In this document: positions 7,884-54,113 of the stretch, in pieces
Numbering within the stretch: position 1 is the first letter of the stretch
How the letters are laid out: every line of letters starts with the position of its first letter
Source: Narthecium ossifragum
Taxonomy: Eukaryota; Streptophyta; Magnoliopsida; Dioscoreales; Nartheciaceae
NCBI GenBank assembly: GCA_963920575.1
Contig: OY986968.1
Span: 8,983,485 to 9,047,484 of the forward strand
Length of the DNA: 64,000 nt
Reading direction: 5' to 3'
Made by a program: the position numbers and the translations under genes
The notes under the pieces: generated by a model
The model's database searches: none
The model's input: only the letters and a program-made list of their open reading frames with translations
Told to the model about the DNA's origin: nothing

Positions 7884-8200
7884 TGATGAGTGCATGAAAG
7901 TGCATGCTGAACATGACTAAAAGCAGCTTATTTGCTGACTTTTCATGATTAATATAAATGATTTCGTGTGTATATGTTGCTTCACAAAGTTATTTGCATT
8001 ATGTAGGAAATTGAAGCAAAGATGGGTCTTTAACACAAAAACTGTACCTTCTCGGAATGAACCAGATGATGTGCTATATATGGTTGGAAAGCTCTGGAAG
8101 TTTAGTTTCCGGGAGTTTCCTAGATGAAGATATGCTATTTTTAGTACGAAAGGTGCAGACAAAGCAGTTACGGAAGAAGAAGATCATCTGATGCTCAAAC

Positions 8201-8426
8201 GATCGATCTTCACCAAAGGAGAGATCAATCTTTTAAGTGCATTTAATCCTGACAGAGAGCATACTTTCAAAGGATCGATCTCCTAAGTGAATTTAATCCT
8301 GACAGAGGGCATACTTTCAAAGGATCAATCTTACTCTATCAAAGGATCGATCTTCCTCGGGCGTAGCCAGAAACTCAAGAAATTGAAGAATAGAAGATCG
8401 ATCTTTCTCATATCAAAGGATCGATC
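8201..8426 (+). repeat. GATCGATC palindrome cluster in Athila U3
   Basis: GATCGATC cores start at 8201, 8273, 8345, 8396 and 8419, with degenerate relatives (GATCAATC) between. The last two form a near-perfect hairpin with arms GATCGATCTTT and AAAGGATCGATC. The cluster ends 65 bases before the TATA box. Confidence 0.85.
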
Positions 8427-8490
8427 CTTGGTTTATGGAAGAGAAAATTAAAGGCCCAAATCTAATCCGAGCTTCTTAACTTTTGGAGGC

Positions 8491-8498
8491 TATAAATA
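8491..8498 (+). promoter_or_regulatory. TATA box of Athila 3' LTR
   Basis: TATAAATA in the context GGAGGC-TATAAATAGG, matching the left LTR copy. Confidence 0.65.
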
Positions 8499-9377
8499 GG
8501 AAACCTAGGGTTAGAAAAAGGGGAGTTCTTGGACGTTTTTAGAGGACTTTTTTGACCTTTTCTGAAGGAAGAAGATGAAGACATCTCCATCCATGGCCGA
8601 GTAATCCGCGGGCATGGCGGACGGATGACCTAGCGAGAATTAGGGTTTCGTCTTCATCATGGTTCATAGTTTTAATCTTTATTGTTAAACTCTTTTCTAT
8701 GTATTGAATCATCAAAGATTATTTTTCGATTATAGAATTCTATGTGGATGATTAATATTATGAATCCAGACATGCTTCTTTCATGATCTTATAATCCCAT
8801 AGTTTTATCTATTGTTTACCTACTTTATCTCGTGACATCTTTGCTATGCTTTGCCGATTGTGAGAGTTGCTATTGTGTATTCTTAGAGATCTGGTAAGAT
8901 AAATTTAGGGCTTTGTCCTCATAAACTTTTGCTATACGTTGCCTGTAGTGACAGCCGGTATCGTGTATTCTTAGGTTTTGGTTGGATGAAGTTAGAGCTA
9001 GAAAAGGAAGAATCAATCGTAGGAAGATACATTTATCTATTTTGTTAGGTTTATAGTTCCATATCTTCCGGTTAAGGTGATTGGGATGTGAATCCCTTGA
9101 CTGAGTAGTATTGTATGAACCATTGAGAGGAGAAGAACTTAAATCCGAGTGAAGTGATTCTTGATGCCTAGCCTTATTAAAATCCTGATATCTTTAGTTA
9201 ATCTTAGGTATAATCAAATCCTTTGATCTAATTCAGTTAATTCTTAAGTTCTCATTTGTCATCAATTAATTGTTATTTGCGTGTTGAATGTTTTCTTCTT
9301 GTCTCTCTGTGGGTTCGACCTCTCTTATGTTGTGCTGCACCGCGACCACTGTGCGAGACACATTTGAGTTGATATGA

Positions 9378-18639: not shown

Positions 18640-19055
18640 AAAGGTAGCTGGGAAATTATCAAAATGGGGTGGAACCTGACTTGCTTTGGCTGACCGTGTG
18701 ACCCTCGTCAAACATGTCCTCCAAGCACTTGTGGTTTTGACCATGTCTGCCACCCATATTCCGAAGGCCGTGATGGAAAAGATCGATATGCTTGGCCAGT
18801 CGTTCCTGTGGGCCGGGCAATGATGAGTGACCTCTGTTCTTAAGTGGAGCAAGTAAGGACCCAGATGGCTGATGGAGGGCTGTCAATCCGGGATGTTGCG
18901 ACTTGGCAAGAATCACTCAGGATGCAACGCGTATTCTGCCTTCTTCCTCAACACGAGTCGCTTTGGAAACAGGTGGTCCGAGCAAAGTACAGATGGCAAG
19001 GGATATTGCCCTCCTTTGTACCGAGCAAAGCGTCCTCTTCTTGGACGGCGAGATT
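18640..19055 (+). pseudogene. LINE ORF2 fragment: end of reverse transcriptase
   Basis: The readable protein includes LALADRVTLVKHVLQAL, then KAVMEKIDMLGQSFLWAG, then DGGLSIRDVATWQESLRM, then LWKQVVRAKYRWQGILP. This follows the plant L1 order 'LAGRVTLIxSVL ... FLWxG ... GGLGIRDL ... LWxxVxxxKY'. Stops and frameshifts are present. The last 30 bases run into the copia LTR. Confidence 0.8.
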
Positions 19056-19333
19056 GTTGAAAAACTGAAGATGAATCGGATCACCTTGAATCCACTTGTG
19101 ATGGTGAACACAATACAAGACAACAAGAAAGAAGAAAGCACACACACACAAAAACACATCAGGATTTATGTGGAAAATCACTCGGTAAAATACCGAGAGT
19201 AAAACCCACGGGCGGAGTAGGAGTGTTTCACTAAGAATCAAGGACTACAAAGCTTTTCATCTAGAGGAGAACAAGACCTCTCCCTCTAGTGATTTTGTTA
19301 TCAAAGACCATGATTAGGGTTACACACCAACCC

Positions 19334-19341
19334 TATTTATA
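19334..19341 (-). promoter_or_regulatory. TATA box, copia 3' LTR
   Basis: TATAAATA on the minus strand, conserved at 36043-36050 in the other LTR. The nearest GATCGATC hairpin begins 58 bases upstream in the element's sense. Confidence 0.6.
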
Positions 19342-19399
19342 TCCACTAATTAACCCACACTCAGATCAATCTGGACCACTAATTTTACCCCGGATGCGC

Positions 19400-19700
19400 A
19401 AAGGATCGATCTTCTTGGATAGAAAGATCGATCCTTTCATTCCGTAGAATTGGCCGCCCCGACAAAGATCGATCCTCTTGAGTATGAGGATCGATAATCC
19501 AAAAACATGCTCTCTATCATGGAAAAAATCGTTTGAGAGGATCGATTCTTATAGGGCATAAGATCGATCCTTTTCAACACAACTCTCTGTCATGGGATCC
19601 GGACTGAGAGATCGATCCTTATAGGGAAGAGGAACGATCCTTTCCAGCACAGCTCTCAGTCATGGGAAGAGGATCATTCCTTTCCAAGCAATGGATCGAT
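19400..19700 (-). repeat. GATCGATC hairpin cluster, copia 3' LTR
   Basis: The first unit has perfect 14-bp arms, AAAGGATCGATCTT (19400-19413) and its reverse complement (19424-19437), with a 10-base loop. At least three more pairs follow up to about 19700, some decayed. The cluster lies wholly upstream of the minus-strand TATA box. Confidence 0.85.
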
Positions 19701-19830
19701 CCTTTGTCTTCCTGCACCTTATTTGTCTCCTTCTTCTCCTTCTTTCGCCGTACCCAGTTGCTTCAATCAACTGGGTTTGTTTGTTGAGGCCTCATGAGGA
19801 TAGAACCCCAACAAACTCCCCCTTCTCGAC

Positions 19831-22250: not shown

Positions 22251-24282
22251 TGTGAGGACCCGTCCCTCTACTCATGTGGTTCGCTGTGGGCCGCAAGGGC
22301 AATTTGGTAAATTGCGCCTTGTCGGCTTGTTTCATACTCGCGTGTGTACACACTTACCATGTTTGTGGTAATGTTGGGCTAGAATGGTTAGTGGGACCCA
22401 GGATCGAAAGATCCGGGCTTGGGCTTGAGTTCTTTCCCAAGTCTAGCTTTTTGGGCAAATCGGATCGATCTTCTCTAGCTAAGAGATCGATCTTCTTGTG
22501 CCAGAAAGTCAAGCTGAGTTCGTCATGAGAGATCGATCTCTTTTGAGGAGAGATCGATCCCTCATAGGTCAGTTCGTCCTCCCATAAAGCAGACTCAGCG
22601 GATTTTCTTAAATCCCTTTTGAAATCCGTGGATCTAGAGCTCAAATCTGCCGATTTTGAAGGAGTTTAAGGAAGATCCAAGGCCTAGCTGCTTGGATTTA
22701 AGCTGCTTTTGCTTAGGTAGGGATTCCTACCTACAATCTTTTCGGGTTTTTGGTTTTTCCGGTTTGATTATGTTCTTATGCTTAGATCTCTTAATATGCA
22801 TGTTGGTTTTCCGTGATTTCACCGATTTTGGACTCGTGGGATCTTGATTTATCAGATTCCAGAGTTTTGATAAGTTTGGATGTATTTTCCGACCGTATTT
22901 CTCGCTGGAAGTACGCCGGAGAACCTATCCCGATCGATCCTTCTGGGTTGGTCATGCTGCGCCCGATGAAGGATCGATCCTCTGCTTGGAGAAAATCGAT
23001 CCTGGGTCTTGGGTAGCATGGTTACCCTGCGTCGCGAGGAAGATCGATCTTCCTATGACGAAGGATCAGTATGCCGGTTTTTCTTACCGCTTTATACCTT
23101 GTACATATGTTTAAGCATATTAGCCCTATAATAGGGGCAGTGGTGAACCGGGGGAGTGATGACTCCCAGGATGTTTAGAATAAACAGGCGGGTAGCCCTA
23201 CAGCTTTTCCTAGCCTTGCATGCCGGCATGCGCCGAGGGCTTTATCTGTGATATATGTGAGTTGTTGTTTACGGGTTTGCTTCCTGATGCAGGTACTGTG
23301 TTGGACTGCTGACAGTTGATGGTGGTACCACTGTAGCAGCTCCTAGACCTTTCATACATGTTCACCACCCCGGGGCAGTAGGGTACCGTGCCCATACCTT
23401 GTTATGTATATCATAACCTATTGTTGCATGTTTATCTATATTATCCTGCGCATGTTCATAGCATGCATTGTGTTGTGCATTAGTTGCATCTGTGTAGGGC
23501 ATTGCCGATCCAGGGTTTTCGGGTAGCCCGGATCTAGCTCTAGGACCGTTGCGGGTAGCTTGGTCCAGGACTCGATTTGTAGTATTCAGTCGATTTCGAT
23601 GATAGGGTTAGGTGACCTGAATACATGTTGTTTGATGTTTAGAGGTCCTGTCCTTTCCAAGTCGTATCCGAGGTGTAGCCGGAGTCCGGTGTTCTTAAAC
23701 TCTTGGGAGGATGAGTGCCTGCCCAGCAGTGTCCTGGCCCGCCAAACAGTGTTCTGTGTCTTGTTGAGAGTATGCAGTGTTTTGGGCCTGCGTTCACGGA
23801 CTATTGGTAGGGTTATAGGACCCTTGTATACACTTAGGGTAGACTTGGGGGCGACACTGTTGTGTTCCCTCCCTTGTGAGTGTCGTAGTGTAGTATCCCT
23901 GCTGAGCTTAGTGCTCACTCCTACCCGGGCTGCGTTTTGCAGGTGCTGGCGCTAGTTCTTCTTCGGTCGCCCCTACCGGGCTGGTGTTTGGTGACGTGGC
24001 GGCGTCTGGCGGTGCTTGAGGAGCGGTGATCCCAGTCTTACCTTTTGTTATAAATAGTCTCCTATGGGAGTGATAAATGTATAATTTCCCTGTTTGAGGA
24101 TTTTGTATTATATATCAGTTTCTGTCTTTGAGGTTTGTAATTGTATGTTAATACAGGATCAATATGAATTGCTAGGGTAATCACTACGATTAGAGGGAAA
24201 CCTCGCCAAAATTTCCGCAGTAGGTTAGGTTCCGCTTCGCGTCGCCCGGCCCGGTTGGGCCTATGCGGGTCGGGGCGCGACA
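22251..24282 (+). repeat. 5' LTR of Tekay, 2032 bp
   Basis: It starts TGTGAGGACCCGTCCC and ends GGGGCGCGACA. Compared with the 3' LTR it keeps a ~49-bp block at about 22275-22323, which holds the GCAATTT-GGT-AAATTGC hairpin at 22299-22315, but lacks about 170 bp of the downstream GATCGATC array (partner region about 30053-30247). Palindromes remain at 22460-22560 and 22930-23055. Confidence 0.92.
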
Positions 24283-24297: not shown

Positions 24298-24485
24298 ATA
24301 AGCTGTAGATCCCATGGAGTTAGGATTAGGTTCGGTTGAGATTGAGCGTGGAATGGGTAAGTTCTATGTCTAGAACATCCATGCATGCTCTCCTTGTGAT
24401 GTGTTATGTCTTCCGCGTTATTGTTCTAATGTTTGTTTTGCCGTTTTGACGAGTGAAAGCTCGTTTGCTGTTGGTGATCGTGCAG

Positions 24486-25690
24486 ATGTCGGGAGCTCGC
24501 GGCCGACCTCCGGTTGCTGGTCGGGGTGGGGCACGACCTGGTCGACCCGTCCGACCGGACAGGACTGCTCCTGTCATGGTGGTCCGGGCTTGACGGACTG
24601 TACCATCACCAGCGGTGATTTCGGTCGAGCAGGCAGAGGTCTTCCTCGCCAAGGGGGCCCCTGTTCCTATCGACGGGCGGGCCTCGGTGGCTATCACGAT
24701 GGCTTTCCAGTGGCTGAACCCGCCCAGCTCAGCAATAGGTCTGGAGATCCGACCACGGCGGACGACTGGCACGACGGAGTCTCGCGCGTCCTGGATGCTC
24801 TCTTCGTCGAGGACGACCGGGTTCGGGTCACCCTCGCAGCGTTCCAGCTCGATGGAGACGCTCATGACTGGTTGCGCACCGCCCAGCACACCAGTGATGG
24901 AGAGGTGCCACTGTGGGAGGAGTTCAGGGCGATCTTGAACGTGCACTCCCCAGCGAGTGCGCGTGACGCCCTGACCCGTGAGTACCAATCCCTCTTGCAG
25001 GGTACTCGCTCCGTTCAGCAGTATGCCTCTAGGTTCACGCACCTTGTTCGGTTTGCGGGGACAGTTGCAGCAGATCAGACAGCCAGGGTGCGGCAGTTCG
25101 AGTGGGGACTTCGGCCAGAGATCCGGCGGCAGACTAACTCACACTGCTTCCAGTCATACTCAGCGATCCTGAACTGCGTCTTGTTAGTAGAGGCTCAGTT
25201 GCGGGACGACAGGTGTCGGGCAGTTCCACCGGCACCCTTCAACAGCACGCAGTAGCGACCCCAGGGCAGAGGGGGGTTCGGTAGGGGGCAGCCGCGGCGT
25301 CAGCGACCCTTTCAGCAGCAGCCGCAACGTGCACTGCAGTACCCACAGCCACTACCGAGCCCACCAGCCCCGTTTCTACTAACGACCGGGCCATCTGGGC
25401 AGGCCTCGTCAGGGGGAGGCCAGGGTCGGCAGCCTGGCGGCGCGTCGCCTGCTTGCTTCCAGTGCGGGCAGCCGGGGCACTACCGTAGAGACTGTCATTC
25501 GCGAGGAGCGCAGAGCGCTATGCCGGAAGGCAGTAGAGGCGGAGGGTCCGGTGCCTGGCAGGGGAGCGGGGGTGGACGCGGGCCAGGGCATCCCAGAGGT
25601 GGAGGCGGCCATCGGGGGCAGGTGTTTGCCCTCCCAGTTCGCGAGCAGCAGGACTCCGTTCAGCTGTATCAGCCGCCACCGCAGTACTAG
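24486..25690 (+). pseudogene. gag: Tekay gag
   Basis: The ATG at 24486 opens MSGARGRPPVAGRGG, a basic Gly/Arg/Pro-rich start. A TGA at 24591 and a one-base frame change near 24725 break the N-terminus. The gag domain then reads VRVTLAAFQLDGDAHDWL, ARDALTREYQSLLQGTRSV and QQYASRFTHLVRFAG. The zinc knuckle CFQCGQPGHYRRDC is intact near 25465. The tail is Gln/Pro-rich. In-frame TAG codons are at 25253 and 25688. It would package element RNA in the cytoplasm. Confidence 0.9.
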
Positions 25691-27637
25691 CAGCCGTTAC
25701 AGTGCCAGCAGCCGCAGCAGTACCCGCAGCCGCAGCAGTACCAGCGGGCCACGACAGAGCCATCCGTCCTCAGAGGTATCTTTCAGCTTTCTAGTTCCTT
25801 AGTAGATGTGCTGATAGATTCAGGGGCGTCTCACTCCTACATTGCTAGCATGTGCATGGCATCGCTAGGGTTAGAGACGAGTCGGCTAGAGGTTGCACAG
25901 TCGGTAGACTCACCGATCGGCGGGACAGTCAGGGTGGACCGGGTCTGCAGATCGTGTTCGTTGGAGGTTGGAGGCCTCCGGGTCTGTCTAGACCTGCGGG
26001 TGCTAGACATGACCGGCTATGACGTGATACTCGGTATGGACTGGTTGACAGCATACCGGGGCGTCATCGACTGTGGTCCCCGGAGGGTGGTTGCTTGGAC
26101 ACCCGACGGGACACGGTTTGTGTTGTTGGGGGATTGGTTCTCCGCCGATTCCTTTGCTTCTGGTGTGGGGAGGCATGACAGCGAGCTCTTAGCCTTGTTG
26201 GCCAGCCTGTCCCTGTCCGGTTTTGAGGGAGTGCAGCAGAGCAGTTTTCCCAGGATCGTGTGCGACTACACTGACGTGTTTCCCGATGTGTTGCCAGAGC
26301 TTCCACCGCCCAAAGAGGTTGATTTTGAGATCGACCTAGTACCAGGTACTGCACCGATCTCTCTCCCAGCTTTCAGGATGGCACCAGCAGAGCAGAGCGA
26401 ATTGAGGACCCAGCTAGACGAGCTGACCAGCAGAGGCTTCATCCGTCCCAGCATGTCTCCCTGGGGGGCGCCAGTGTTGTTCGCAAAGAAGAAGGATGGT
26501 ACCATTCGACTTTGCATAGACTACAGGCGGCTCAACAGGGTGATGGTGAAGAACATGTATCCGATGCCGCGGATCGACGACATGTTTGACCAGTTGCGAG
26601 GATCTTCAGTATTCTTGAAGATCGACCTCCGCACCGGCTACCACCAGTTGAGGGTTCGGGATTGCGACATCCCGAAGACAGCATTCCGGACTCGGTACGG
26701 CCTGTACGAGTTCGTGGTGATGTCGTTTGGGCTGACGAACGCACCAGCAGCGTTCATGGATCTCATGCAGAGGATCTTCCGGCCTTTCCTAGACGAGTTC
26801 GTGGTTGTGTTCGACGACGACATTCTCATCTACTCTCGGTCAGAGGCGGAGCACGAGCGACACTTGGCGACAGTGTTGCAGCTACTTAGGGAGCATCGGC
26901 TTTATGCCAAGGCTTCCAAGTGTGAGTTCTGGCTTGCACAGGTGGGGTTCCTTGGATACGTGGTGTCGGCAACAGGGATCTCAGTCGACCCCGCCAAGGT
27001 CGAGGCAGTGGTACAGTGGCAGAGACCGAGGACAGTGTTCGAGGTCCGCAGTTTCCTGGGCTTGGCGGGGTACTACAGGTGGTTCGTGCTGGACTTCTCC
27101 AGAGTTGCCGGACCGTTGACCAGACTAACACAGAAGGTCGTCCCGTTCGTGTGGGATGATGCTTGTGAGCGAGCCTTCGTGGAGCTGAGGACCAGGTTGA
27201 CCAGTGCACTGGTGCTGATCGTCCCCGAGCGAAGCATTGGTTACAGTGTCTACTGCGACGCCAGCGGTGAGGGTTTGGGGTGTGTCCTCATGCAGGAGGG
27301 CCACGCAGTTTCCTATGGTTCTCGTTAGCTGAAGAACCATGAGAGGAACTACCCGACCCATGACTTGGAGCTAGCAGCAGTGGTCTTCGCCCTGAAGACC
27401 TAGCGGCACTACCTCTATGGCGAGAAGTTTTCTGTCTTCTCAGACCATAAGAGCTTGAGGCACGTTTTCACTCAACGTGACCTCAACCTGAGGCAGCGAC
27501 GCTTGATGGAGCTACTGGAGGACTACAACTTTGAGTTGCATTACCATCCTGGTAAGGCCAACGTCGTAGCAGACGCGCTGAGCAGACAGGTGAGAGACAC
27601 CAGAGCAGCAGTTGCAGGGTTGTCAGCGCGGCAGTAG
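25691..27637 (+). pseudogene. Tekay protease, reverse transcriptase, RNase H
   Basis: Protease: [12 protein letters not shown], active-site Asp codon at 25817, then [75 protein letters not shown], and [20 protein letters not shown]. The catalytic box at 26810 reads FDDD (usual FIDD), with both Asp kept. RNase [21 protein letters not shown] and YPTHDLELAAVVFALK. TAG codons lie at 27326 (where relatives have Gln), 27401 (where relatives have Trp) and 27635. A 506-codon stretch is uninterrupted. Confidence 0.92.
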
Positions 27638-29426: not shown

Positions 29427-29523
29427 GATCGATCTTCTCTAGCTAAGAGATCGATCTTCTTGTGCCAGAAAGTCAAGCTGAGTTCATCATGAGAGATCGA
29501 TCTCTTTTGAGAAGAGATCGATC
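29427..29523 (+). repeat. GATCGATC hairpins upstream of Tekay TATA
   Basis: Cores start at 29427, 29449, 29495 and 29516, forming two hairpin pairs. The last core ends 23 bases before the TATA box at 29547. Confidence 0.88.
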
Positions 29524-29894: not shown

Positions 29895-30199
29895 GAATCG
29901 ATCCTTCTTAAGGAAGGATCGATCCCTCTGGGTTGGTCATGTTGCGCCCAATGAAGGATCAATCCTCTGCTCGGAGAAGATCGATCCTGGGTCTTGGGTA
30001 GCATGGTTACCCTGCATCGCGAGGAAGATCGATCTTCCTGGGAGGAAGGATCTATCTTTCTTGGAGCGACAAGAAGGGTGCCCTCTGTCTCGAGGAAGAT
30101 CGATCCTCCTAGGAGGAAGGATCGATCCTTTTAGCTCGACAGTGAGGGGAGGCTCATTGTTACTTAAAAGATCGATCTTTTCTTAGGAAAAGATCGATC
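29895..30199 (+). repeat. GATCGATC hairpin array downstream of Tekay TATA
   Basis: At least eight cores or near-cores occur. The clearest pair has perfect 13-bp arms at 30170-30182 and 30187-30199 with a 4-base loop TTAG. Another, at about 29896-29922, has 11-bp arms ATCGATCCTTC / GAAGGATCGAT around TTAAG. Confidence 0.88.
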
Positions 30200-32362: not shown

Positions 32363-33604
32363 TGATATGAGTCGATCCGACTCGACCAACTGGACCCGAA
32401 CCCAGAAGAGGAACAAAGCTGGTTAAACCTCTTTCCTAGTTTGACTTGGACTTCCCTAGTTCAAACTAGAGTATTTAATTAGTATTTATCATTAGTTTTT
32501 TATTGAGTCCTAGTTGATTGTTAGGAATTAATTAAGAGTCCCCTTATTACTTGCTAATTAAGCAAGGGGGTTTTCTAGTGGATTAGGACTCTGTCAAGGT
32601 CTCTATAAAAGGACCTCATTAGTTTGTATTAGGTTATGATGATGCATGAGATGAATGATAAAGTAATTAGTAGAATATCATAGGAGTAGAATATCATAGG
32701 AGTAGAGATAATATAGCTTCCACCAGTTATCCACCATAGATCCACCTTCTTCCCCGTCGGTCATCTTCTCCGCAGCCGGCATCACCTCCACCAGAATCTC
32801 TCTCTCCCCGTCACTTTCTCTCTCCTCCACGTCAGCACCCTCTCTCCTTGTCACCTGCCACGTCATCGTCTTCTTCCTTCCCTCTCTTCTCTCCCGTACC
32901 CTAGCATCCGCCGACCACCGCCGTTCTCTCCTCCCCGGCCACCCCCGTCGCCACCTAAACCCTCCATCGTCTTTCCCTAAGCCTCACGACTCCGGACAGC
33001 ACCCTTACCGCCTCCTTCACCGTCTCCGGCGCCTTCCCCGGCAAACCCGACCTTCATCCTCACTGCCATCACCCGCGTCCGTCCCAGATATCACTCATAA
33101 CCCATCCTAAACCTTCCTCGTCTCCCCACGACCCTTTCCCGACCATCTTCTCGACGTCCCAAGCCCCAGCCGAGCTTCCCGTCATCCCCGACGCCGGTTA
33201 ACCCAACCCACCGCCGTCGACCTCCCAGATCCGGCCGATCCGCCACCCATCTCCCCGATCCGAACCGTTGGATCTCTTCCCCATCAATCCACGAGCCTTC
33301 CTGCCACTATCCCTACAGCCACCGCCGCCCTTACGCGGGCGATGTACTCCGGCGACTCCTCAATCGTCAGATCTTCCCAGCCGATCTTGACCAATTCAGC
33401 CATCGGATCAAGTCCGGTTCAGCCAAGCCGAGCCACTTAGCCCAATCAAGTCAAGCCTGACCCAATTCCTTGAGCTAGATTCAATCCAACTAGTCAAATC
33501 AGCCAGTTGGACTCAATCAAGCCCGATTAGACTCGATTCTGATCGATTGGAGCAGTAGAGACCCATTACGAGAGGATCAAGAGTAGACCGCTCGTAACAT
33601 CTCG
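32358..33604 (+). mobile_element. Solo LTR of the non-autonomous (LARD) family, TSD TCTCG
   Basis: The LTR is 32363-33599 (1237 bp), flanked by TCTCG at 32358-32362 and 33600-33604. It begins TGATATGAGTCGATCC and ends CTCGTAACA, the reverse complement of the LTRs at 55707 and 58810. A TATAAAAG box lies at 32604-32611 in its sense. It interrupts the copia pol between the integrase C-terminus and RDVVFSED. Absence of any internal region shows LTR-LTR recombination after insertion. Confidence 0.93.
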
Positions 33605-34489
33605 ACTCCTTATCAACTTTCCCGCTACTGGATCCCATAGTCTGTATCCTAGTTCATCTTCTGCATAACCCAAAAATATGCAACACTTCGCTTTCTAATC
33701 CAGCTTGGTTCTATCCACTTTCGGTATGTGTACTGAGGCCTTACAACCGAAAATTCTGAGATGTGCATAAGAGACTTCTTTATTCTTCCAGACCTGTTCA
33801 GGGATGTTGTCGTCCAATGGGATTGATGGGGATCTGTTAATTAAATAACATGCTATCTTAACTGCTTCTCCCCAAAAGTGCTTCGGCAGCTTCGCCATTG
33901 ACAGCAAACTTCGAGTCTTCTCCATAATGGTCCGGTTCATCCTTTCAGCTACCCCGCTCTGTTGAGGTATAAGAGAAACTATCCTCACATGCCTAATGTC
34001 GCACTCCCTACAATAGTTTGTAAAGTTCTTGGAGGTGTACTCTTCCCCATTATCAGTGCACAGACATCTCAATGATTTTCCAGTCTCACGTTCTACTCTA
34101 GCAAGAAAGGACTGAAAGGTTTTAAAAGCATCAGACTTATTACTGATTATATAAGCCCATACCTTCCTCGAAGCATCGTCTATGAAGGTGATGAAATACG
34201 CGTTGCCGCCCATGGACTCCACCTCCATAGGTCCACAGATGTCGGAGTGAACAAGCTCCAGCAAATTTCTTTTCCTTCTAGCAGCGGTTCTGGCAAAAGA
34301 CACCCTATGTTGTCTTCCAAACAAGCAATTATCACAAGGTGTCTGGGGAGTACATGTGACGTTGGATAGAATCTTCTTCGTTGCCAGGATCTTCAGCCCC
34401 TTTTCATTGATGTGGCCGAGCCTTTTATGCCATAGTAGGGAAGTATCTTTATGCTCCACTGCTAGTGCTGAGCCTATCTGTGTAGTCAC
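33605..34489 (-). pseudogene. Copia integrase
   Basis: From about 34450 the minus strand shows the zinc module LLWHKRLGHINEKGLKIL and CDNCLFGRQHRVSF. The catalytic triad follows: LVHSDICGPM (Asp), CTDNGEEYTS (Asp) and SGVAERMNRTIMEK (Glu), all intact. The domain end LRIFGCKASVHIPK is followed by a stop at 33692 and a continuing fragment up to the solo LTR. The best preserved copia domain here. Confidence 0.9.
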
Positions 34490-34555
34490 TCTTGTTCAAT
34501 AGAGAGAGCAGCACTTCTTACCACTTGCGATCACTAGGGATCCTTTGGTCAGCTT

Positions 34556-35729
34556 TCAAGTACCTCGACCAAAACTGGGCATGTATCCTTCATCGTCCAG
34601 GCATCCTGGTGAGATCAAGTTGAGGCGAAGGTTGTTGATGTGACGAACGTCTTGAAGTACCATCTTCAAGCCAATGTTCGTCACAATCTGAATGTCGCCT
34701 CTCCCAATGATCTGCGACGTATAACCATTGCCCATCTTCACAGCACCAAAGTTTCCTGCCTTGTAGTTTGTGAAGAATTGCTGATGCGATGTTGCATGGA
34801 TTGAGGCTCCCGTGTCAACAATCCAGTCGGCATGAGGGGGATCGACAACATTGATGCAGCTCTCCTTGCAGCATCCCAAGATGGTAACATCGTTGTCCAG
34901 CTCCACAACTGAAGTATCTTTGCCTCCCCTGTTACCTGTGGCCTTGCCTTCCTGTAGATCTCTTTTCAACTTCCTGCAATCTCTCTTGAAATGTCCCTTC
35001 TTCTTGCAGTAGTAGCACTGCACATCTTTTCTGGTCCTTGACTTGCTTCGGGATTTGAATCTATCACCAAGATCCCGGTTCGTCCCTCTGCCTCTAGCGT
35101 CAGACTCTAAACGATCTCTGAACTGTCTCTTCTCCGCCAGATGTGCTTCTGAGACATCATCTTCAGTAGTTTTCCTTCTCATCTCATTAGAAAGAAGAGC
35201 CGACATGACTTATTCTATTTCTAATGTCTCTTTCCCGTACAAAAGGGTAGTCACCAAGTGCTCGTATGAAGCAGGTAAAGAAGCTAGAAGGAGTAGTGCA
35301 TTATCTTCATCTTCTACCTTAATATCCAAATTGAGCAGCTGACTATGAAGTTTGTTGTAGGTGTTGATGTGCTCCATCAGATTGGATCCTTCCTTCATCC
35401 TCAGAGTATAAAGTTGTCGTTTGAGAAACAACGTGTTTGTGAGCGAATTGGTCATGAAAAGGCTCTCTAGTTTCAACCATAGATTCATGGCTCCCTTTTC
35501 ATTGATCACGTTATACATGATCTCATCTGCCAGAAATGGTGCTCCTTGCCTTCATGCATGTATCCTCCCAGTCTCCATCTGTCATACCTTCTGGCTTCTT
35601 CCCCTCAATGGCTCTGTAGGTGCCCTGTTGCACCAGGATATCTTTGACTCTTTATTGCCATAGACCGAAGTTGGTCTTCCCGTCAAACTTCTCAACATCA
35701 AACCAAGAGATTGACGCCTTGCCTGCCAT
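34556..35729 (-). pseudogene. gag: Copia gag and protease
   Basis: The minus-strand ATG at 35729 opens MAGKASISWFDVEKFDGK, close to the Tork-group gag start. A broken stretch (35520-35650) precedes MYNVINEKGAMNLWLKLESL (35210-35518). Next come the zinc knuckle CYYCKKKGHFKRDC and the protease DWIVDTGASIHATSHQQFF with intact DTG. The frame ends near 34556 after NLISPGCLDDEGYMP. A stop at 35207 and frame changes break gag. Confidence 0.88.
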
Positions 35730-35759: not shown

Positions 35760-35761
35760 CT

Positions 35762-36517
35762 TGTTGGGAAGCTGGAGGTGAATCGGATCACCCTGAACCC
35801 ACTTGTGATGGCGAACACAAGACAAGAGAACAAGAAAGGAGAAAGCACACACACACACAAGAACACACCAGGATTTACGTGGAAAACCACTCGGCAAAAT
35901 ACCGAGAGTAAAAACCACGAGCGGAGTAGGAGGGTTTCACTAAGAATCAAGGAGTACAAAGCTTTTCATCTAGAGGAGAACAAGAACTCTCCCTCTAGGG
36001 TTTTCGTTATCAAAGACCATGATTAGGGTTACACACCAACCCTATTTATATCCACTAATTAACCCACACTCGGATTAATCTGGACCACTAATTTTACCCT
36101 GGATGCCGCAAAGGATCGATCTTCTTGGATAGAAAAATCGATCCTTTCATTCCGTAGAATTGGATGCCTTGACAAAGATCGATCCTCTTGAGTATGAGGA
36201 TCGATTATCCAAAAACATACTCTCTGTCATGGGAAAAATCATCTGAGAGGATCGATCCTTATAGGGCATAAGATCGATCCATTCCAACACAGCTCTCTGA
36301 CATGAGATCCGGACTGAGAGGATCGATCCTTATAGGGAAGAGGACCGATCCTTTCCAGCACAACTCTCTGTCATGGGAAGAGGATCGATCCTTTCCAAGC
36401 AAAGGATCGATCCTTCCTACACCTTGTTTGTCTTCTTCTTCTCCTTCTTTCGCCGTACCAGTTGCTTCGATCAACTGGGTTTGTTTGTTAAGGCCTCATG
36501 AGGAGAGAAACCCAACA
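35762..36517 (-). repeat. 5' LTR of the Tork-like copia
   Basis: It starts TGTTGGGAAGCTGG and ends AACCCAACA, 756 bp, matching 19056-19813. The minus-strand TATA box is at 36043-36050. Confidence 0.88.
36110..36415 (-). repeat. GATCGATC hairpin cluster, copia 5' LTR
   Basis: The same layout as 19400-19700: four to five pairs of palindromes, the first starting 60 bases upstream of the minus-strand TATA box. Some arms that are mutated in one LTR are intact in the other (for example the 36126 arm is altered while 19426 is perfect). Confidence 0.85.
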
Positions 36518-36732
36518 AATATGTCGTCCTACCTTCCATGTTCGGGCTGGACTGCGTTGGGTTCCTGGAGCACACAGCCGACTCCACCTCTTGCGGTACT
36601 AGTAGCTGGCGGACCTACCTATCTGTGCTAAGCCTACTTTTATTAATGTTAACCTTTTATCAGATCGAGCCTTGGTGAGACGCCTTCAGAATGCTGATGG
36701 GAGTTGAAACCGGGATCTGGCGTAACCACTGG
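36518..36732 (+). pseudogene. LINE ORF2 fragment continuing after the copia
   Basis: Readable pieces are GLRWVPGAHS, LADLPICAKPTFINVNLLSD and RALVRRLQNADGSWN. They match the L1 region after the RT, which typically has a WLADxP motif and a 'vxdLIdxxxxxWN' motif. Several stops are present. Confidence 0.65.
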
Positions 36733-39594: not shown

Positions 39595-40325
39595 TGTTGG
39601 GGATCTGAGGGGTCCCAGTGATGCCGGAGATGCACCAGATAGAGACGGGGATGTCGCAGCGGAAGAGAAACAACCAAACCACAAAGAAAAGGAAAAAGTG
39701 GAGACAAGGATTTACGTGGAAAAACCTACCAGCAACAACTGAAAGGAAAAAACCACGGGTAGCAAAGGAAATCTTCACTATGAGAGAGAGATTACAAAAC
39801 TCAAACCCTAGCAGAGACAAAGAGATCTCTCTCTAGAGTTGCCTACTCTCACACCTCTCACAATACTCCTCTCAACCATATCTCTACCACACAAAAGAAA
39901 CCTTAGAAGCACTCTATTTATAGCCTCCAAAGAGTACAAATCTGGATTAGATCTGAGCCGTCGGATTTGCCCATCCAATAAGGAAGGATCGATCCTACTC
40001 AAGGGAATGATCGATCCTTGTATGCACGAGATCGATGGATTCCAAAAATCCCGAAGAAGATCGATCCTAATGTATAGGAGAGATCGATCCTTTGTACCCG
40101 AACGTCCTCAACATCTCAGCATTCCGAAGAGGATCGATCCTACGATCGATCCTTCATTGACCAATACAAACATGTGCTCTCTGTCTCTTTTGTTTACAAC
40201 ATAGGATCGATCCCCTTGGAGAGAAAGATCGAGCCTCTGATAAAGTGCAAAGGAAGATCGATCCTTCTCTTAAAGAATGATCGATCCTATTGCTGTCGTC
40301 ATCCTCATTGGAGGAAAAGTCAACA
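39595..40325 (-). repeat. 3' LTR of gag-only copia, 731 bp
   Basis: It starts TGTTGGGGATCTGAGG and ends AGTCAACA. A minus-strand TATAAATA box is at 39915-39922. A GATCGATC cluster runs from 39987 to about 40290, with arms AAGGATCGATC (39984-39994) and its complement (40009-40019). The polypurine tract (GGACGGGGGAGTT, minus) adjoins at 40326. Confidence 0.92.
39984..40290 (-). repeat. GATCGATC cluster, gag-only copia 3' LTR
   Basis: About ten cores or near-cores are spaced in pairs. The first core is 65 bases upstream of the minus-strand TATA box. The same array is repeated at about 45197-45500 in the 5' LTR. Confidence 0.85.
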
Positions 40326-40578
40326 AACTCCCCCGTCCGACACATGAGGATAAGCCGTCGAACTCGGATACTCCATCAAGCTCGGAAACTCCATCAAACT
40401 CGGATTGCCATCGAATTCAGATTGCGCAGCCGTCATGCCACCTCCAATGCTGCCAGCTATCCACTTTTATGTTGCCGTCGAAGTTGGATGACACCATCAA
40501 CCTCAAATCTGTCATTGAACTCCAGATCTCCTATCGGATTCAGATCACCATCATCGAGAACTATCCACCAAAAACTTG

Positions 40579-43940: not shown

Positions 43941-44714
43941 TCACGTGACGATCGCGGTGCTCCCATCTTCACCATCATCAACCTTGCCATCTCTGACGTC
44001 CTTCTTGTACTTCATGCACTGCTTCTTTACATGGCCTGCTTTGCCACAGTAATAGCAAGTGATACTTTTTCTTCTGCCTTGGTTCACTGCCACCATAGAC
44101 TTTGAATCTATCTGGCTTGCTCCAGCAGCCTTCCATTTGGTCTCTTCGTTCAGCAAACAGCCTGTAACTTGGCTCAGAGATACTGCTCCGTTAGGCGCTG
44201 AGTTGTTGAGCGATACTGCCAGGCTCTCCCAAGAATCTGACAAAGAACTAAGCAGGAGTGATGCCTTCAGGTCGTCATCCAAAACCATCTTTATGGTAGC
44301 AAGTTGATTGACGATACTATGAAACTCATTCAGGTGCTCGGTTATCGACCCTCCATCCTGGTACTTCAGATTCACAAGCCGTCGAATCAAGAAAGTTTTG
44401 TTTCCAACAGACTTTCTCTCGTAAAGCTCGTGAAGCTTGTCCCAAAGATCTTTGGTTGTCATCGTCGTCGACACGTGGTGGTAGACGCAATCTTTCAAAC
44501 ACTGTCGGATAGTTGCCAAGGCCTTCCTGTCAAGCTTGTTCCATTCTCCTTCCTCCATCTCCTTAGGCTTCTTTTCTATTCCATGCAGAGGCTTGTAGAG
44601 ATCACTGCAGAATAAAAGATCCTCCATCTTTGTCTTCCATGGGTTCCAGTTGTTTCCGTTGAGTAAAACCATCCGTCCAACATTAACGTCCATCTCGCTT
44701 CTGCCAGAATCCAA
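43941..44714 (-). CDS. gag: Gag polyprotein of the gag-only copia, 257 aa, intact
   Basis: The minus-strand ATG at 44714 is 77 bases after the primer site. The protein has the copia gag (UBN2-like) order: LLNGNNWNPWKTKMEDLLF, then KALATIRQCLKDCVYHHVS, then TTKDLWDKLHELYERKSVGN, then LKASLLLSSLSDSWESLAVS. The nucleocapsid zinc knuckle is CYYCGKAGHVKKQC near residue 220. It ends at 43941 with an acidic tail and has no protease motif. It would form virus-like particles and bind element RNA; replication would need enzymes from an autonomous copia. The intact frame suggests recent activity or selection on gag. Confidence 0.88.
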   Translation of the reverse strand: MDSGRSEMDVNVGRMVLLNGNNWNPWKTKMEDLLFCSDLYKPLHGIEKKPKEMEEGEWNKLDRKALATIRQCLKDCVYHHVSTTMTTKDLWDKLHELYERKSVGNKTFLIRRLVNLKYQDGGSITEHLNEFHSIVNQLATIKMVLDDDLKASLLLSSLSDSWESLAVSLNNSAPNGAVSLSQVTGCLLNEETKWKAAGASQIDSKSMVAVNQGRRKSITCYYCGKAGHVKKQCMKYKKDVRDGKVDDGEDGSTAIVT

Positions 44715-44790
44715 CCCAGATGCTTCAGATCTTGATTAGGGACTTAGAATCTTGATCAGGGATTTGAATCCCCCTAATCTCGGAACCTCG

Positions 44791-44804: not shown

Positions 44805-45535
44805 TGTTGGTGATCTGAGGGGTGCCGGCGATGCCGCAGATGCGCCAGATAGAGACGGGGATGTCGCAGCGGAAGAGAAACAACCAAACCACAAAGAAAA
44901 GGAAAAAGTGAAGACAAGAATTTACGTGGAAAAACCTACCAGCAACAACTGGAAGGAAAAAACCACGGGCGGCAGAGGAAATCTTCGCTATAAGAAAGAG
45001 ATTACAAAGCCCAAACCCTAGCAGAGACAAAGAGATCTCTCTCTAGGGTTGCCTACTCTCACACCTCTCACAATACTCCTCTCAACCACATCTCTACCAC
45101 ACAAAAGAAACCATAGAAGCACTCTATTAATAGCCTCCAAAGTGTACAAATCTGAATTAGATCTGAGCCGTCGAATTTGCCCATCCAATAGGGAAGGATC
45201 GATCCTACTCAAGGGAATGATCAATCCTTGTATGCACGAGATCGATGGATTCCAAAAATCCCGAAGAAGATCGATCCTAATGTATAGGAGAGATCGATCC
45301 TTTGTACCCGAACGTCCTCAAAATCTCAGCATCCCGAAGAGGATCGATCCTAAGATCGATCCTACATTGACCTTTACAAACATGTGCTCTCTGTCTCTTT
45401 TGTTTACAACGTAGGATCGATCCCCTTGGAGAGAAGGATCGATCCTCTGATAAAGTGCAAAGGAAGATCGATCCTTCTCTTAAAGAAGGATCGATTCTAT
45501 TGCTGCCGTCATCCTCATGGGAGGAAAAGTCAACA
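44805..45535 (-). repeat. 5' LTR of gag-only copia, 731 bp
   Basis: The same length as the 3' LTR with a few percent of differences. The TATA site at 45125 reads TATTAATA, weaker than in the other LTR. The GATCGATC array lies at about 45197-45500. Confidence 0.92.
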
Positions 45536-45692
45536 AACTCCCCCGTCCAACACATGAGGATAAGCCGTCGAACTCAGATACTCTATCAAGCTCGGAAACT
45601 CCATCAAACTCAAATTGCCATCGAATTCGGATTGCGCCGCCGTCATGCCACCTCCAGTGCTGCCGCCATCCTCATGGGAGGAAAAGTCAACA
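45536..45692 (-). repeat. Extra internal-end segment plus 33-bp LTR tip
   Basis: 45536-45659 repeats the internal region found next to the 3' LTR (compare 40326-40455: AACTCCCCCGTCC, ATGAGGATAAGCCGTCGAAC). 45660-45692 repeats the last 33 bases of the LTR (compare 45503-45535). TAAGG, the target duplication, follows. Thus the true outer end of the insertion is 45692, not 45535. The joint lies at a TGCTGCC shared by both source sequences. Confidence 0.88.
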
Positions 45693-49439: not shown

Positions 49440-49703
49440 ACACCCGCGTAATACACACACGGCCTCATGAGTGATGAATGTATTTGTTAGAACCCTAGGC
49501 GAGCTTCGGATTGAAAGATCCGAGCTCGGGCGTGAAAGCTTGTCTTTAGGACAACTTTGAGCCCTATAGCGATCGATCGGCCCTTGCAACGTTAGATCAG
49601 CTTCGAGAGCAAGCGCCAAGGCTGAGGTGTCAGCCGATCAACTGACCTTGTGCGATCGATCGCTACTTTAGGCAATTGATCGGACACTGCTGGTATAAGT
49701 AGT

Positions 49704-52700
49704 CACCATGTGAGGACCTGTCCCTCTACTCCTAGGTCGACCGTCTAGGTCGGGCCCGTGGCTCGTTGTGGACCGCAAGGGCAATTTGATAAATTACACC
49801 TTGTCGGTTGGTTTGACACCCGCGTGCACACACTGATCGTGTTTGTGTTAATGTTTATTAAGAACAGTTAGGTGGACCCGAGATCGAAAGATCCGGGCTT
49901 GGGCTTATGTTTTAGCCCAAGTCTGGCTTTATGAGCGAAAGGGATCGATCTTCTCTTACTAAGAAGATCGATCGTTTAGCGTCAGAAAGTTAAGTCGGTT
50001 CGTCATGAAAGATCAATCTTTTCTTGAGGAAAGATCAATCTCTCATAAGGCGGTCCTTCCGTCTATAAAATGCACGCGATCCCTTCTTTGATCCGGCTGG
50101 ATTTGGAGGAGATGGAGGACAATCCAAGGCTTAGCAGCTCGGATTGAAGCTGTTCTAGTCTAGGTAGGGATCCTAGCTACTTGAGTTCCCAGTTTTTGAA
50201 GGTTTTGATTTTGTTTTGTGATCTTTTGCTTAGATCTGCTAATATACATGTTTGTTTTCAATGAAAGCATCGGTTTTGGACTCGTTGTCCTTCGTACTAC
50301 TATATCCTAAGGTTTTGTGGGATTTGGTGGAGTTTTCCGATGCTATTTCTCACCAGCAGTTCACCATTTGTGGGACGTCATGCTTAGCCCGTGCATGATC
50401 AATCTTCTGGTGGAGAAGATCGATCTTTTCTTGGATGGCGTAGACGGGGTCCCGGGTCACAAGGAAGATCGATCCTTCTGATGGAGAAGAACGATCCCTT
50501 ACGGCTTGACCGGGATGGGGACTTCCAAACGCTAAGCAGATCGATCTTCTTTGGTGGAGAAGATCGATCCCTTTAGTGGCTGAGAAGCGTTTTCAATGGT
50601 TTTTTTTCCCACGAGGCTTCGCATGTACGAATTTTCTTTATCGCTTTATACCATGCACATATTGTTAAGCATGTTATCCCCATAATAAAGGATAGTGCTG
50701 AACCGAGAGAGTGATGACTCCGGGGATGTGTAGATAGCATGTTGTATTGTTAGCGGTGTTTTCCAGGGTTGCTTCTCATGGCATGCTGTTCTTTTGTGAA
50801 CTAGTTGCAGTTGGTGGTGTTACCACTGCAGCAGTTCCTTGACTTACTTATCTGTTCACCACCCCAGGCCGGCAGGGTGCCGATCCCAAACCTTGTTTAT
50901 TATATCATCACAGGTGTTGCATGCTTACTTGCTTATCTGCGTGTGTTCATAGTATGCATCTGATTGTGCATTAGTTGCATAAGGTTAGGGCGTAGGCGAT
51001 GGGTTGATCCCCAATCCGGGGCTTTCGTGTCACGCCCCAACCCGTGAAAGCCCAACCGGGCCGAGAGACGCGAACCGGAACCTAACGAAACGCAGAAAAT
51101 TTGGCGAGGGTTCCCTCTAACCTATTGTTCTCCCTAGAAAGTTCACCAAAAACACCCTCAATTTAAAATACAATAATTTAAGCAAACCTCGAACCAAAGA
51201 TTACAATCCCAAAAGTGTTTAATATACAAATTCTCGAAGAGGGGAAGATCCAAATACAACAGTTTACTCACTAGGAGACTAACTAACAAATGTTTAAAGC
51301 AGTAAAAGATCGCCACCTCTCAGACTCCGCCTGGCGCCGCCGCACCGCCGACCAACTTCCCGGTAGGGGCCACTGAAAAGGAGCTAGCGCATGCATCTGC
51401 AAAACACAGCTCGGGTAGGAGTGAGCAACTAAGCTCTGCAGGGAAACTGCACTACAACACACAGAAGGAAGAGGGAAACGCAACAGTGTCACCTCTAAGT
51501 AAAATCTGGATGTATACAGAGGACCCATAACCCCACCGCGTGTCCCTAAGGCCCACGATCATGGTCTTTCAGAAGAACTGGTCACATGATGGGTCACGCT
51601 CAGTAAGCAGGAAACAACACTGCTGGCTCACAAGCAGGGAACGACACTGCAGGCGGGAAATGGCACCGCTGAGTAGGTAACCCCTCTACTCAAGAGTCAA
51701 CACAGTGGGACACCGGCTACACTTCAACATCCGACTCGAGACCGACACGACCTCTACAATCACCAAGCAACAGGTGTACCAGTCATCTAGGCCTATCATC
51801 GACTTTGACTGTACACCACAATTCAAATATGATCCAAACTACCCAACCCCGGTCCTATGGCTAAATCCGAGCTTCCAGCCTCGGGGAGGCGACCCACAGA
51901 TCGCCCACACCCTAACCATGCAACTAATGCACAACAGAGATGCATGCGATGAACATACGCATATAAGCAGTTAAGCATGCATCAGGATGTGATGATAACA
52001 TAACAAGGTCTGGGCTCGACACTCTGCCGGCCCAGGGTGGTGAACATATATTTAAGGTTTGAAACTGTTGCAGTGGTACACCACCAACTACCAGCCAGTT
52101 CACCGGCAACCGGCATCGGGAAGCAGCCCCGCAAACAACAGAGACAAACCACGCAGGTAAAAGCCCTCGGCGCACGCCGGCATGCAAGGCTATGGAAAGC
52201 AGTAGGGCTACCCTCCCACTTATTCTAAACATTCCATGAGTCATCACTCTCCTGGTTCACCACTACCCTAATATGGGGCTAGCATGCTTAAGAGTATGTA
52301 CAAGATATAAAGCTATAAGACTGTACATACAAAGCCCCGCGGGCAAACCTATTGAAAAAGGCCCTCAACCACTAAGAGATCGATCTCTCTCCCAGAGAAG
52401 ATTGATCTTCTTAGTGCTTGGGAGAAAACTTGTCCCTGTCAACCGGAAGAGATCGATCTTCTCCACCAGAAGGATCGATCTTCCTCATGACACGGATCCC
52501 GCCATACCAGCCAAGCAAGGATCGATCTTCTCCAACAGAAGGATCGATCCCTCTCGGGCTGGGCATGACGCTCCACAAGAGATCGATCTTTCCTCAAGAG
52601 AGATCGATCCCAATGGGTTCACCGGCAAACCGCCGGTGAGAAATACAGTCGGAAAACTCCACCAAATCCCACAAAACTCTGGGATCTGGTAGTACGAAGG

Positions 52701-54113
52701 ACCACGAGTCCAAAACCGAAGATTTCATTGAAAACAAACTTGTATTTTAACATATCTAAGCAAAACAAACATTAATCGAACTCAATCTCACAAATTCGAA
52801 AAAACAAGTAGGTAGGAATCCCTACCTAGGCAATAGCTGCTTCAATCCCAGCTGCTAGGCCTTGGATCGTCCTCAAACTCAATCAAATCCAGCAAGAACA
52901 CAACTCAAGACGCGGATTTGCCAAAAAAATCAAAGAAAAGGGATTTCGTTCGTTTTATAGATGAACGAATCGACTCAAGAGAGCTCGATCTTTTTTAGAA
53001 AGAGATCGATCTTCCTTGACAAGCCGGGTTGACTTTCTGGCACTAAAAGATCGATCTTCTAGCAATGACGATCGATCCCTTAGGTGCAGAAAACTAAAGC
53101 TCAAGCCCAAGCCCGGATCTTTCGATCCCGGGTCCACCTAACCTTTCTAATCAAACACTAACACAAACATGGTCAGTATGTACACACGCGGGTGTGGAAC
53201 AAATCGACAAGGCTCAATTTACCAAATTGCCCTTACGGTCTACAACGAGCCACTGGGGTAGAGGGGCAGGTCCTCACATTTCAGGTAACTCGGATTTAGC
53301 TCTAAGACCGTGGCTGGGTAGCGTGGTCCAGGTTTAAATGGTAGTATTTCTGTCGATCTTGATGATAGGCTTAGATGACTGGAATACTCTTGTTGATCGA
53401 GGTTTAAAGCTCGTGTCGGCCTCGAGCCGGGTTCTGAGGTGTAGCCGGTGTCCGGTTTCTACGACTCTTGAGTAGAGGGTGTGCCTACTCCGCGGTGCCA
53501 TTTTCTGCCAGCAGTGTCGGTTTTCTGCTTGTGAGTCAGCAGTGTTGGTTTCCTGCTTACTGAGTATAACCCAGCATGTGACCAGTTCTTCTGGAAGACC
53601 ATGACTGTGGACCTCAGGGACACGCGGTGAAATTATGGAGCCCCTATGTACACCCAAGCTTTGTTTGAAGGTGACACTATTGTGTGTCCACCTTCTTTGT
53701 GTGAATCGTAGTGTAGTTTCCCTGCTATGCTTAGTTGCTCATTCCTATCCATGCTGCGTTTTGCAGGTGCATGCATTAGCTCCTCTTCGATGGCCCCTAC
53801 CGGGCAGGTGTTTAGCAGCGCGGCGACGCCTGCCGAAGTTTGAGGAGCGGTGATCCCCCTTTTTTGTTACAGTTATTCTCCTACGGGAGTGTGATGTATA
53901 ATTTACCCTTTTTGAAGAGTTTGATGAAATGAATTGTTTTACTACATCTGCTGAGATTTCTTTAATTATTACTTTAATAAGGGTGTTTTGAGGATTTTTT
54001 AGGGAGACTAGTAGATTAGAGGGAACCCTCACCAAAATTTTTGTAGTTAGTTAGGTCCCGGTTCGCGTCGCCCAGCCCGGTTGGGCCTACGCGGGTCGGG
54101 GCGCGACACACCA
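49704..54113 (+). mobile_element. Tekay-family solo LTR, TSD CACCA, split by a second one
   Basis: The LTR is 49709-54108, flanked by CACCA at 49704-49708 and 54109-54113. It begins TGTGAGGACCTGTCCC and ends GGGGCGCGACA. Without the insertion at 51028-53278 it is about 2.14 kb. It carries GATCGATC hairpins at about 49944-50045 upstream of a TATAAAA box (50064-50070) and again at 50396-50575. The target site is 3-7 bases downstream of the TATA element of the older LTR it entered. Confidence 0.92.
51023..53283 (-). mobile_element. Nested Tekay-family solo LTR, reverse orientation
   Basis: The LTR is 51028-53278 (2251 bp), flanked by TTTCG (51023-51027) and TTTCA (53279-53283), a duplication with one G-to-A change. 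On the minus strand it starts TGTGAGGACCTGCCCC and ends GGGGCGTGACA. Palindrome hairpins lie at 52980-53085, upstream of the minus-strand TATAAAA (52953-52959), and at 52378-52610 downstream. Confidence 0.92.

Follow-up and report, generated by a model that had tools for sequence, protein, structure and literature searches.

A spaced palindromic word common to the promoters of Ty1 and Ty3 retrotransposons in Narthecium ossifragum

Introduction

In the long terminal repeats (LTRs) of Sireviruses, a genus of Ty1/copia retrotransposons, the conserved TATA box is described as being preceded by symmetric repeats that have a CGG-CCG core and occur in high copy number (PMC2829016). In maize, a palindrome occurs in 42.9% of the structured regions of Copia elements and also in Helitrons, with a cis-regulatory role under discussion, and arrayed, sometimes palindromic repeats are reported from the cis-regulatory regions of several element families (PMC10760457). 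Here we analyse a 64,000-base stretch of the Narthecium ossifragum genome (the window; C6:8983485-9047484, within 379.4 Mb in 150 contigs), in which the palindromic word GATCGATC forms dense arrays in the LTRs of both Ty1 and Ty3 elements.

These arrays are of the same kind as the Sirevirus repeats, the closest system known from the sources cited: both consist of palindromic high-copy boxes upstream of the TATA box, with a proposed cis-regulatory role. They differ in the core, which is CGG-CCG there and GATCGATC here (with purine-left and pyrimidine-right flanks in most pairs), and in that the Sirevirus motif, as reported, belongs to one Ty1 genus, whereas the present word is found in Ty1 and Ty3 elements, with a pair-spacing rule and set distances to TATA. 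The arrays bound by VANC in Arabidopsis VANDAL elements are likewise made of a short, dense motif in non-coding element DNA, and density matters for binding there (PMC5735166). We regard them as a functional parallel only; the VANC-bound motifs, according to that source, keep one orientation through tandem repeats, are family-specific and serve the element's own anti-silencing factor. The arrayed repeats of PMC10760457 resemble ours as repeated cis elements in control regions but, as far as that account goes, are described per family, without a word common to superfamilies and without a spacing rule. Among the papers listed for GATCGATC, for plant motifs and for palindromic LTR repeats, titles and abstract openings do not mention the module.

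Results

Abundance and conservation of the sites

The word occurs 73 times in the window, against 1.24 copies expected from a first-order Markov model, and the next most frequent palindromic 8-mer reaches 9 copies. A genome sample of 20 stretches (10 kb each, placed on eight contigs at round-number coordinates; 199,800 readable bases) contains 176 copies, or 881 per Mb, where 3.5 copies were expected, with at least one in 16 of the 20 stretches. Nearly all of them (172 of 176) fall in 30 arrays that span 5,946 bases; the other four are singletons (about 21 per Mb), which places the density outside arrays near the chance level in these stretches. The original prediction, made from the letters of the window, had described clusters of the palindrome in the LTRs of several families, and every cluster that it named was found where it had been placed; the observation is confirmed, and is bigger than first described. 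Pairs of GATCGATC at a spacing of 22 bp also occur in viral contigs of IMG/VR, in 34 stretches with one pair apiece, which we read as chance.

Alignments indicate that the sites are conserved against a diverged background. Below 75% identity, 642 of 782 sites are retained (0.82), compared with 450 of 3,624 CpG-centred 8-mers (0.124) and 5,436 of 43,517 other 8-mers (0.125). The corresponding counts for sites and CpG-centred 8-mers are 624/736 versus 978/3,672 at 75-82% identity, 250/304 versus 692/1,468 at 82-90%, and 132/150 versus 634/932 at 90% or more.

Elements that carry the arrays

According to Pfam, the Athila-like element of the window encodes gag and RVT_1, the Tekay element gag, protease, RVT_1, RNase H and integrase (H2C2; Ty3 coding region 24374-28423), the Tork-like element Pol_BBD, gag_pre-integrs and rve, as in copia (Ty1; coding region 33698-35209, minus strand), and the gag-only copia Retrotran_gag_2 at 43944-44735. 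The names Athila, Tork and Tekay are those of the original prediction, Pfam backing the superfamily level only, and loci outside the window are assigned to clusters by DNA similarity. The word is thus common to Ty1 elements and to Athila-like and Tekay elements of Ty3.

Sequence clustering joins 23 of the 30 sampled arrays with a member that lies in a recognised LTR (Tekay cluster 14, Athila cluster 2, Tork cluster 1, a third Ty3 cluster 6); one further array belongs to an unclassified two-member cluster and six are unclustered. The Tekay cluster accounts for 37 of the 73 arrays clustered overall, and may be partly glued together by the motif itself. In the third Ty3 group (L008, L015, L018, L020), gag and protease frames of L020 are flanked by a direct repeat of 98% identity, which two of the arrays there overlap, and we place the group on the Athila side because its reverse transcriptase is 61-63% identical to the Athila-like enzyme and about 35% identical to that of Tekay (L008 and L018 compared). 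Its loci, together with L024, keep the core word in other flanks, often GTCC before or GGAC after it, and in 23-bp pairs. The word is not universal among LTRs, as all three LARD-like copies examined in the window (55705-56981, 58808-60084 and 32363-33599) hold no GATCGATC.

Spacing within arrays

Adjacent sites in the 20 stretches are typically 21 (6 cases), 22 (32) or 23 bp (24) apart, with only four spacings from 24 to 38 bp (24 once, 31 twice, 38 once) and the next peaks at 39-40, 48-49, 61 and 72 bp. Throughout the genome, 33,313 pairs are spaced at exactly 22 bp versus 121 at 16 bp; in some arrays the pair spacing is 16, 19, 20 or 24 bp. The 137 non-redundant linkers of 30-110 bp form clusters at 38-41, 48-51, 59-64, 71-73 and 83-85 bp, seen again in each of the larger families, and none of 2,000 jittered sets attained the periodicity near 11 bp that was observed. 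Neighbouring sites are thus spaced near whole helical turns, with exceptions at 44-47 bp. The spectrum of all pairwise distances is best at about 10.2-10.3 bp (R about 0.35), a signal weaker than the adjacent-linker test and one on which we do not rely. One-mismatch variants of GATCGATC are commonest in the slots at plus or minus 22 bp, and 21 of the 53 variants in 21-23 bp slots are CpG transitions, which means that the arrays were formerly more regular and probably methylated.

Two further regularities were seen. A pair spaced at 16 bp rather than the usual 22 turns up repeatedly in L002-L004 and elsewhere, its 8-base spacer always being GGTGGGTT or the complement of this. Between pairs, TGACAGAG or the related GACAGAGAG recurs in the linkers of Athila, Tork, gag-only copia and third Ty3 arrays, with TGACAGAG common to the linkers of three clusters; either could possibly be a further binding site.

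Distance to the TATA box

The distance from the last site to TATA was obtained by regular-expression matching. In the window it is 64 bp for Athila, 62 and 63 for Tork, 23 for Tekay and 64 for the gag-only copia, close to the 65, 60, 23 and 65 bases or so of the original prediction. Five arrays of the Athila cluster have 64-65 bp, five of the Tork cluster 62-63 and six of the Tekay cluster 23, and two Tekay-cluster relatives with degenerate last slots have 44 and 90; the third Ty3 cluster has 53 (three arrays), 63 and 64, one other array 75 (TATATAA), and further loci 63-65 (five), 11 and 78.

The same main distances are found in the matches inspected from genome-wide patterns. The word followed by TATAAATA after a gap of 41-71 bases was found 7,753 times, against 35 for the reversed pattern, and among the first 100 of these matches, all on C1, 95 lie at 63-65 bp (20 at 63, 53 at 64, 22 at 65), the other five at 53 (two), 60 and 62 (two), in agreement with the predicted positional preference. 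With TATAAA after a gap of 10-40 bases there are 4,354 matches, against 337 for the reversed pattern; among the first 100, 46 lie at 23 bp, 10 at 10-11, 5 at 22, 5 at 16 and 34 are scattered, part of this scatter arising because the TATAAA in question is not the promoter.

A core promoter shared between Ty1 and Ty3

We compared promoters by local alignment after masking GATCGATC and its one-mismatch forms, using 60 dinucleotide shuffles and a threshold of z 5. Promoters of the Athila cluster and of copia exceed this threshold in 15 of 20 comparisons (5.0-17.0), those of the Athila cluster and the third Ty3 cluster in 6 of 12, and those of copia and the third Ty3 cluster in 3 of 15; Tork-like and gag-only copia promoters do so in 0 of 6, and Tekay promoters only with their own relative. 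The original prediction had assumed that Ty3 and Ty1 lineages share no LTR sequence by descent. Complete independence is rejected for the Athila cluster and copia, which are alike beyond the motif, as recombination of a common segment would have it; Tekay, alike in no masked comparison outside its own group, has only the sites and their spacing in common with the other families.

What the core promoters of copia and the Athila cluster have in common is a GATCTAATCC-type box, which follows the last site and precedes TATA. A regular expression for this box gives 13 matches over the window together with 44 loci of the genome (L001-L004 left out), and each of the 13 lies 26-27 bp past a GATCGATC and 22-23 bp ahead of TATA. 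The listed literature matches to the exact letters of four forms of the box look unrelated by title. The 53 strings examined from the pattern with a gap of 41-71 bases include 19 core types below 75% mutual identity; 17 of them hold the distance of 63-65 bp, and in 12 the position of the box reads TAATCC.

The Athila cassette of the window has an identity of 0.69-0.70 to the gag-only copia, 0.59-0.67 to the Tork-like element and 0.47-0.62 to other Ty3 cassettes, and the two copia cassette types have a mutual identity of 0.50-0.58 (shuffled baseline 0.49). As the four other Ty3 cassettes are each closest to another Ty3 cassette (0.72), the crossing between Ty1 and Ty3 is carried mainly by one 64-bp cassette. 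An exchange of promoter segments between the Athila cluster and copia seems likely from these comparisons, although the cassette crossing is suggestive of exchange rather than proof of it, and a similar pattern would result from convergence driven by a single host factor.

Discussion

A proposed regulatory grammar and what weighs against it

From the abundance of the word, its restriction to arrays, the spacing grammar, the two main TATA distances, the conservation of the sites and the sharing between Ty1 and Ty3, we infer a protein that would read the sites on one helix face, and we lean towards the explanation that the arrays constitute an enhancer and promoter grammar of the LTRs, read by a putative DNA-binding protein and spread by promoter exchange, by convergence or by both. 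The arrays would then be the transcriptional control region of these LTRs and GATCGATC the predicted site of a sequence-specific protein, probably a dimeric host transcription factor. This protein would occupy couples of sites about two helical turns apart (21-23 bp). Linkers of 39-41 and 48-51 bp, roughly one turn different in length, would position these couples, and the last site would stand at a fixed distance from TATA, in the main 23 or 63-65 bp. On LTRs of copia and the Athila cluster, the protein would work together with the GATCTAATCC-type second box, and the bound couples would raise LTR transcription in concert with the TATA complex; the second array of Tekay LTRs could be a further enhancer. 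The sharing would have arisen by exchange of promoter segments between the Athila side and copia and by separate gain in Tekay, and would have been retained by selection. Plant GATA and GARP-type factors recognise GATC-containing sites, which we take as a lead only.

Several observations weigh against this explanation. The alignments behind the conservation estimate overlap and may be anchored on the motif, although the gap is nonetheless large, and the regular expression for the box was derived from some of the sequences that it found and misses variant boxes. The linkers of 44-47 bp stand in Tekay promoter arrays, off the one-turn ladder, and the linker classes at 61, 72 and 84 bp are not independent, because they are partly sums of 22 and 39-50 bp across a decayed middle site. 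In the Tekay cluster, a TATA match within 110 bp is missing from 29 of 37 arrays, among which there are downstream arrays; 54 of the first 100 places of the pattern with a gap of 10-40 bases are not at 23 bp and range from 10 to 40, and for both TATA patterns the first 100 matches are confined to the initial part of contig C1. The original prediction had placed the module just upstream of TATA, which covers only part of the arrangement: Tekay-type LTRs have, besides the promoter-proximal array, a second one about 0.35-0.65 kb downstream of TATA (Table 1), so that a limitation of the arrays to U3 upstream of TATA is rejected. Finally, helical phasing relative to TATA is suggestive only: at 10.5 bp, five distance classes (11, 23, 53, 64 and 75) give R 0.94 (p 0.007), and with 44, 78 and 90 added R falls to 0.65 (p 0.057). 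This weakening on recheck lowered our confidence in the favoured explanation slightly and raised that in the hairpin, discussed below, by a similarly small step.

The usual view is that the control regions of retrotransposons evolve separately in each family. A single word with strict spacing, present in Ty1 and Ty3 elements alike and reaching about 880 copies per Mb of sampled sequence, would make much of this community depend on one factor, and, if this is true, one trans-acting protein would switch much of it on or off together. That one regulatory code, read by a single factor, serves a large share of the genome's Ty1 and Ty3 LTR promoters through exchanged cassettes is the boldest form of this idea, and we put it forward tentatively, with more doubt than confidence. 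With tens of thousands of pairs whose geometry is known (33,313 at 22 bp), the genome also provides a natural experiment that could be used to study binding rules, promoter exchange and the conflict between host and elements.

Alternative explanations

The original prediction had proposed a host-recognised target captured, exchanged or convergently evolved by several families, and had given a hairpin as the thing recognised; a cis-acting target present in several families, far above background and positioned relative to TATA, stands, whereas the hairpin as the recognised unit is not supported. Neighbouring palindromes might fold as RNA or as extruded DNA and be recognised in that form, for instance as a trigger for small RNAs, as has been proposed for maize Sirevirus LTRs. 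The perfect arms of 11-14 bp that had been reported were all confirmed on recounting (14 bp at 19400/19424, 13 bp at 30170/30187, which sits in the second Tekay array downstream of TATA, and 11 bp at 39984/40009), and RNA folding of three single pairs gave z scores from -3.8 to -5.6. Such hairpins are, however, largely automatic, because palindromic sites always pair mutually: arms of at least 11 bp are no commoner in close pairs (9/21) than in other adjacent pairs (14/31), and are also found in 43 of 129 pairs that are non-adjacent but lie within 400 bp of each other and in 637 of 2,290 that lie more than 3 kb apart. Across 79 non-redundant oriented pairs, inner-arm complementarity at positions 1-4 is 0.62, 0.68, 0.48 and 0.57, versus 0.42, 0.48, 0.37 and 0.44 in within-family shuffles, and at positions 5-6 G.T exceeds A.C on the sense strand (32 versus 11). 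Yet agreement of flanks within sites and between direct repeats also exceeds shuffles at positions 1-2 (in one direct comparison at 1-4), much of the arm pairing being due to the common purine-site-pyrimidine flank, G.T and A.C are balanced at positions 1-4 (32 and 35), there is no excess pairing at 5-6, and a signal in RNA would not predict set distances to TATA. The residual excess at positions 3-4 is what a symmetric protein complex would give as well. Arm statistics and spacing rules together thus favour DNA read by a protein while leaving room for a role of folding; arm lengths and the flank comparison disfavour the hairpin as a selected unit, and we consider recognition of a folded form quite unlikely.

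A protein might also read the word to the detriment of the elements, as a host silencing or heterochromatin factor whose target they cannot shed. The density of the arrays across the genome and the CpG transitions among pair-slot variants (21/53), as methylated DNA would show, agree with such a target; CpG decay is, however, expected in any silenced element, a purely harmful target should vanish rather than be kept at 0.82 amid divergence, and the sites stand at set TATA distances, which leads us to rate this alternative as unlikely, though deserving some weight. An element-encoded protein that binds the arrays and shields many families from silencing, as VANC does for VANDAL, would fit the high density of a short motif in non-coding element DNA that is described for VANC targets, but those are reported to be family-specific (PMC5735166), whereas the present word is common to Ty1 and Ty3. 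Among 36 frames, Pfam finds no domain of transcription-factor type, only retroelement domains (zinc knuckles and integrase included) and one kinase-type host frame, a weak argument as 14 frames have no match at all; we deem such a protein improbable.

The families might instead have recombined one LTR segment of common origin, with the word carried along free of function. The masked likeness of Athila-cluster and copia promoters, the window Athila cassette being nearer to copia than to other Ty3 cassettes, and the presence of TGACAGAG in the linkers of three clusters all point this way. But function-free descent would retain neither 0.82 of the sites in alignments below 75% identity nor 63-65 bp in 17 of 19 diverged core types, and it is at odds with the lack of masked likeness of Tekay promoters outside their own group and between Tork-like and gag-only copia (0/6), so that we hold it to be similarly improbable. 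Lastly, GATCGATC is identical to the DpnII/MboI Hi-C ligation junction, and chimeric Hi-C reads could in principle have entered the assembly. The sites occupy matching positions in both LTRs of elements, recur in diverged copies and keep the spacing of 21-23 bp, and the same slots contain one-mismatch relatives, all of which makes the chance of such an artefact negligible in our view. Read trimming at GATCGATC, as the DpnII Hi-C junction, would in such a genome remove real sequence.

Features of the window

The arrays, boxes and TATA positions are collected in Table 1.

Table 1 Arrays of GATCGATC and associated promoter features in the window
Feature	Position	Strand	Context
Array, 5 sites, with variants in pair slots	8201..8426	+	Athila-like Ty3 3' LTR; spacings 72, 72, 51, 23
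Athila LTR pair	1-999 / 8377-9375		92.9% identity; site 43-50 is the 5'-LTR equivalent of 8419
GATCTAATCC-type box, one base altered	8453..8467	+	Athila 3' LTR, 26 bp past last GATCGATC; 5'-LTR counterpart at 77
TATA box	8491..8498	+	Athila 3' LTR, 64 bp past last site
Array, 6 sites	19404..19701	-	Tork-like copia 3' LTR (repeat 19054-19815); TATA ~19341-19334
Promoter-proximal array, 4 sites (22, 46, 21)	22463..22559	+	Tekay 5' LTR
Second array, downstream of promoter	22932..23049	+	Tekay 5' LTR
Promoter-proximal array, 4 sites	29427..29523	+	Tekay 3' LTR; TATA 29547, 23 bp past last site
Second array, 7 sites, downstream of TATA	29917..30199	+	Tekay 3' LTR
GATCTAATCC-type box; TATA	36086-36073; ~36050-36043	-	Tork-like copia 5' LTR
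Array, 7 sites	36114..36412	-	5' LTR (repeat 35761-36519), same Tork-like copia element
Box; TATA (64 bp)	39959-39945; ~39922-39915	-	Gag-only copia 3' LTR
Array, 9 sites	39987..40286	-	Gag-only copia 3' LTR (repeat 39595-40462)
Box; TATA-like TATTAATA (64 bp)	45169-45155; ~45132-45125	-	Gag-only copia 5' LTR
Array, 8 sites	45197..45473	-	Gag-only copia 5' LTR (repeat 44805-45671)
Promoter-proximal pair	49943..49973	+	Tekay relative; two more slots are GATCAATC (50011, 50033); TATA 50064
Second array, 4 sites	50418..50569	+	Same Tekay relative (pair at 49943..49973)
Second array, 7 sites	52378..52609	-	Minus-strand Tekay relative
Promoter-proximal array, 3 sites and one degenerate	53004..53077	-	Minus-strand Tekay relative; TATA ~52959

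Two sites 83 bp apart (49571 and 49654), upstream of a Tekay-relative LTR, have unusual flanks and belong to no array cluster. Between LARD-like LTRs of the window lies an open frame of 531 amino acids (56908-58500, minus strand) for which Pfam gives no match and which shares 69% identity with a frame of 663 amino acids in another copy (L012:2880-4868, plus strand), so this class may carry a conserved protein or a conserved internal sequence.

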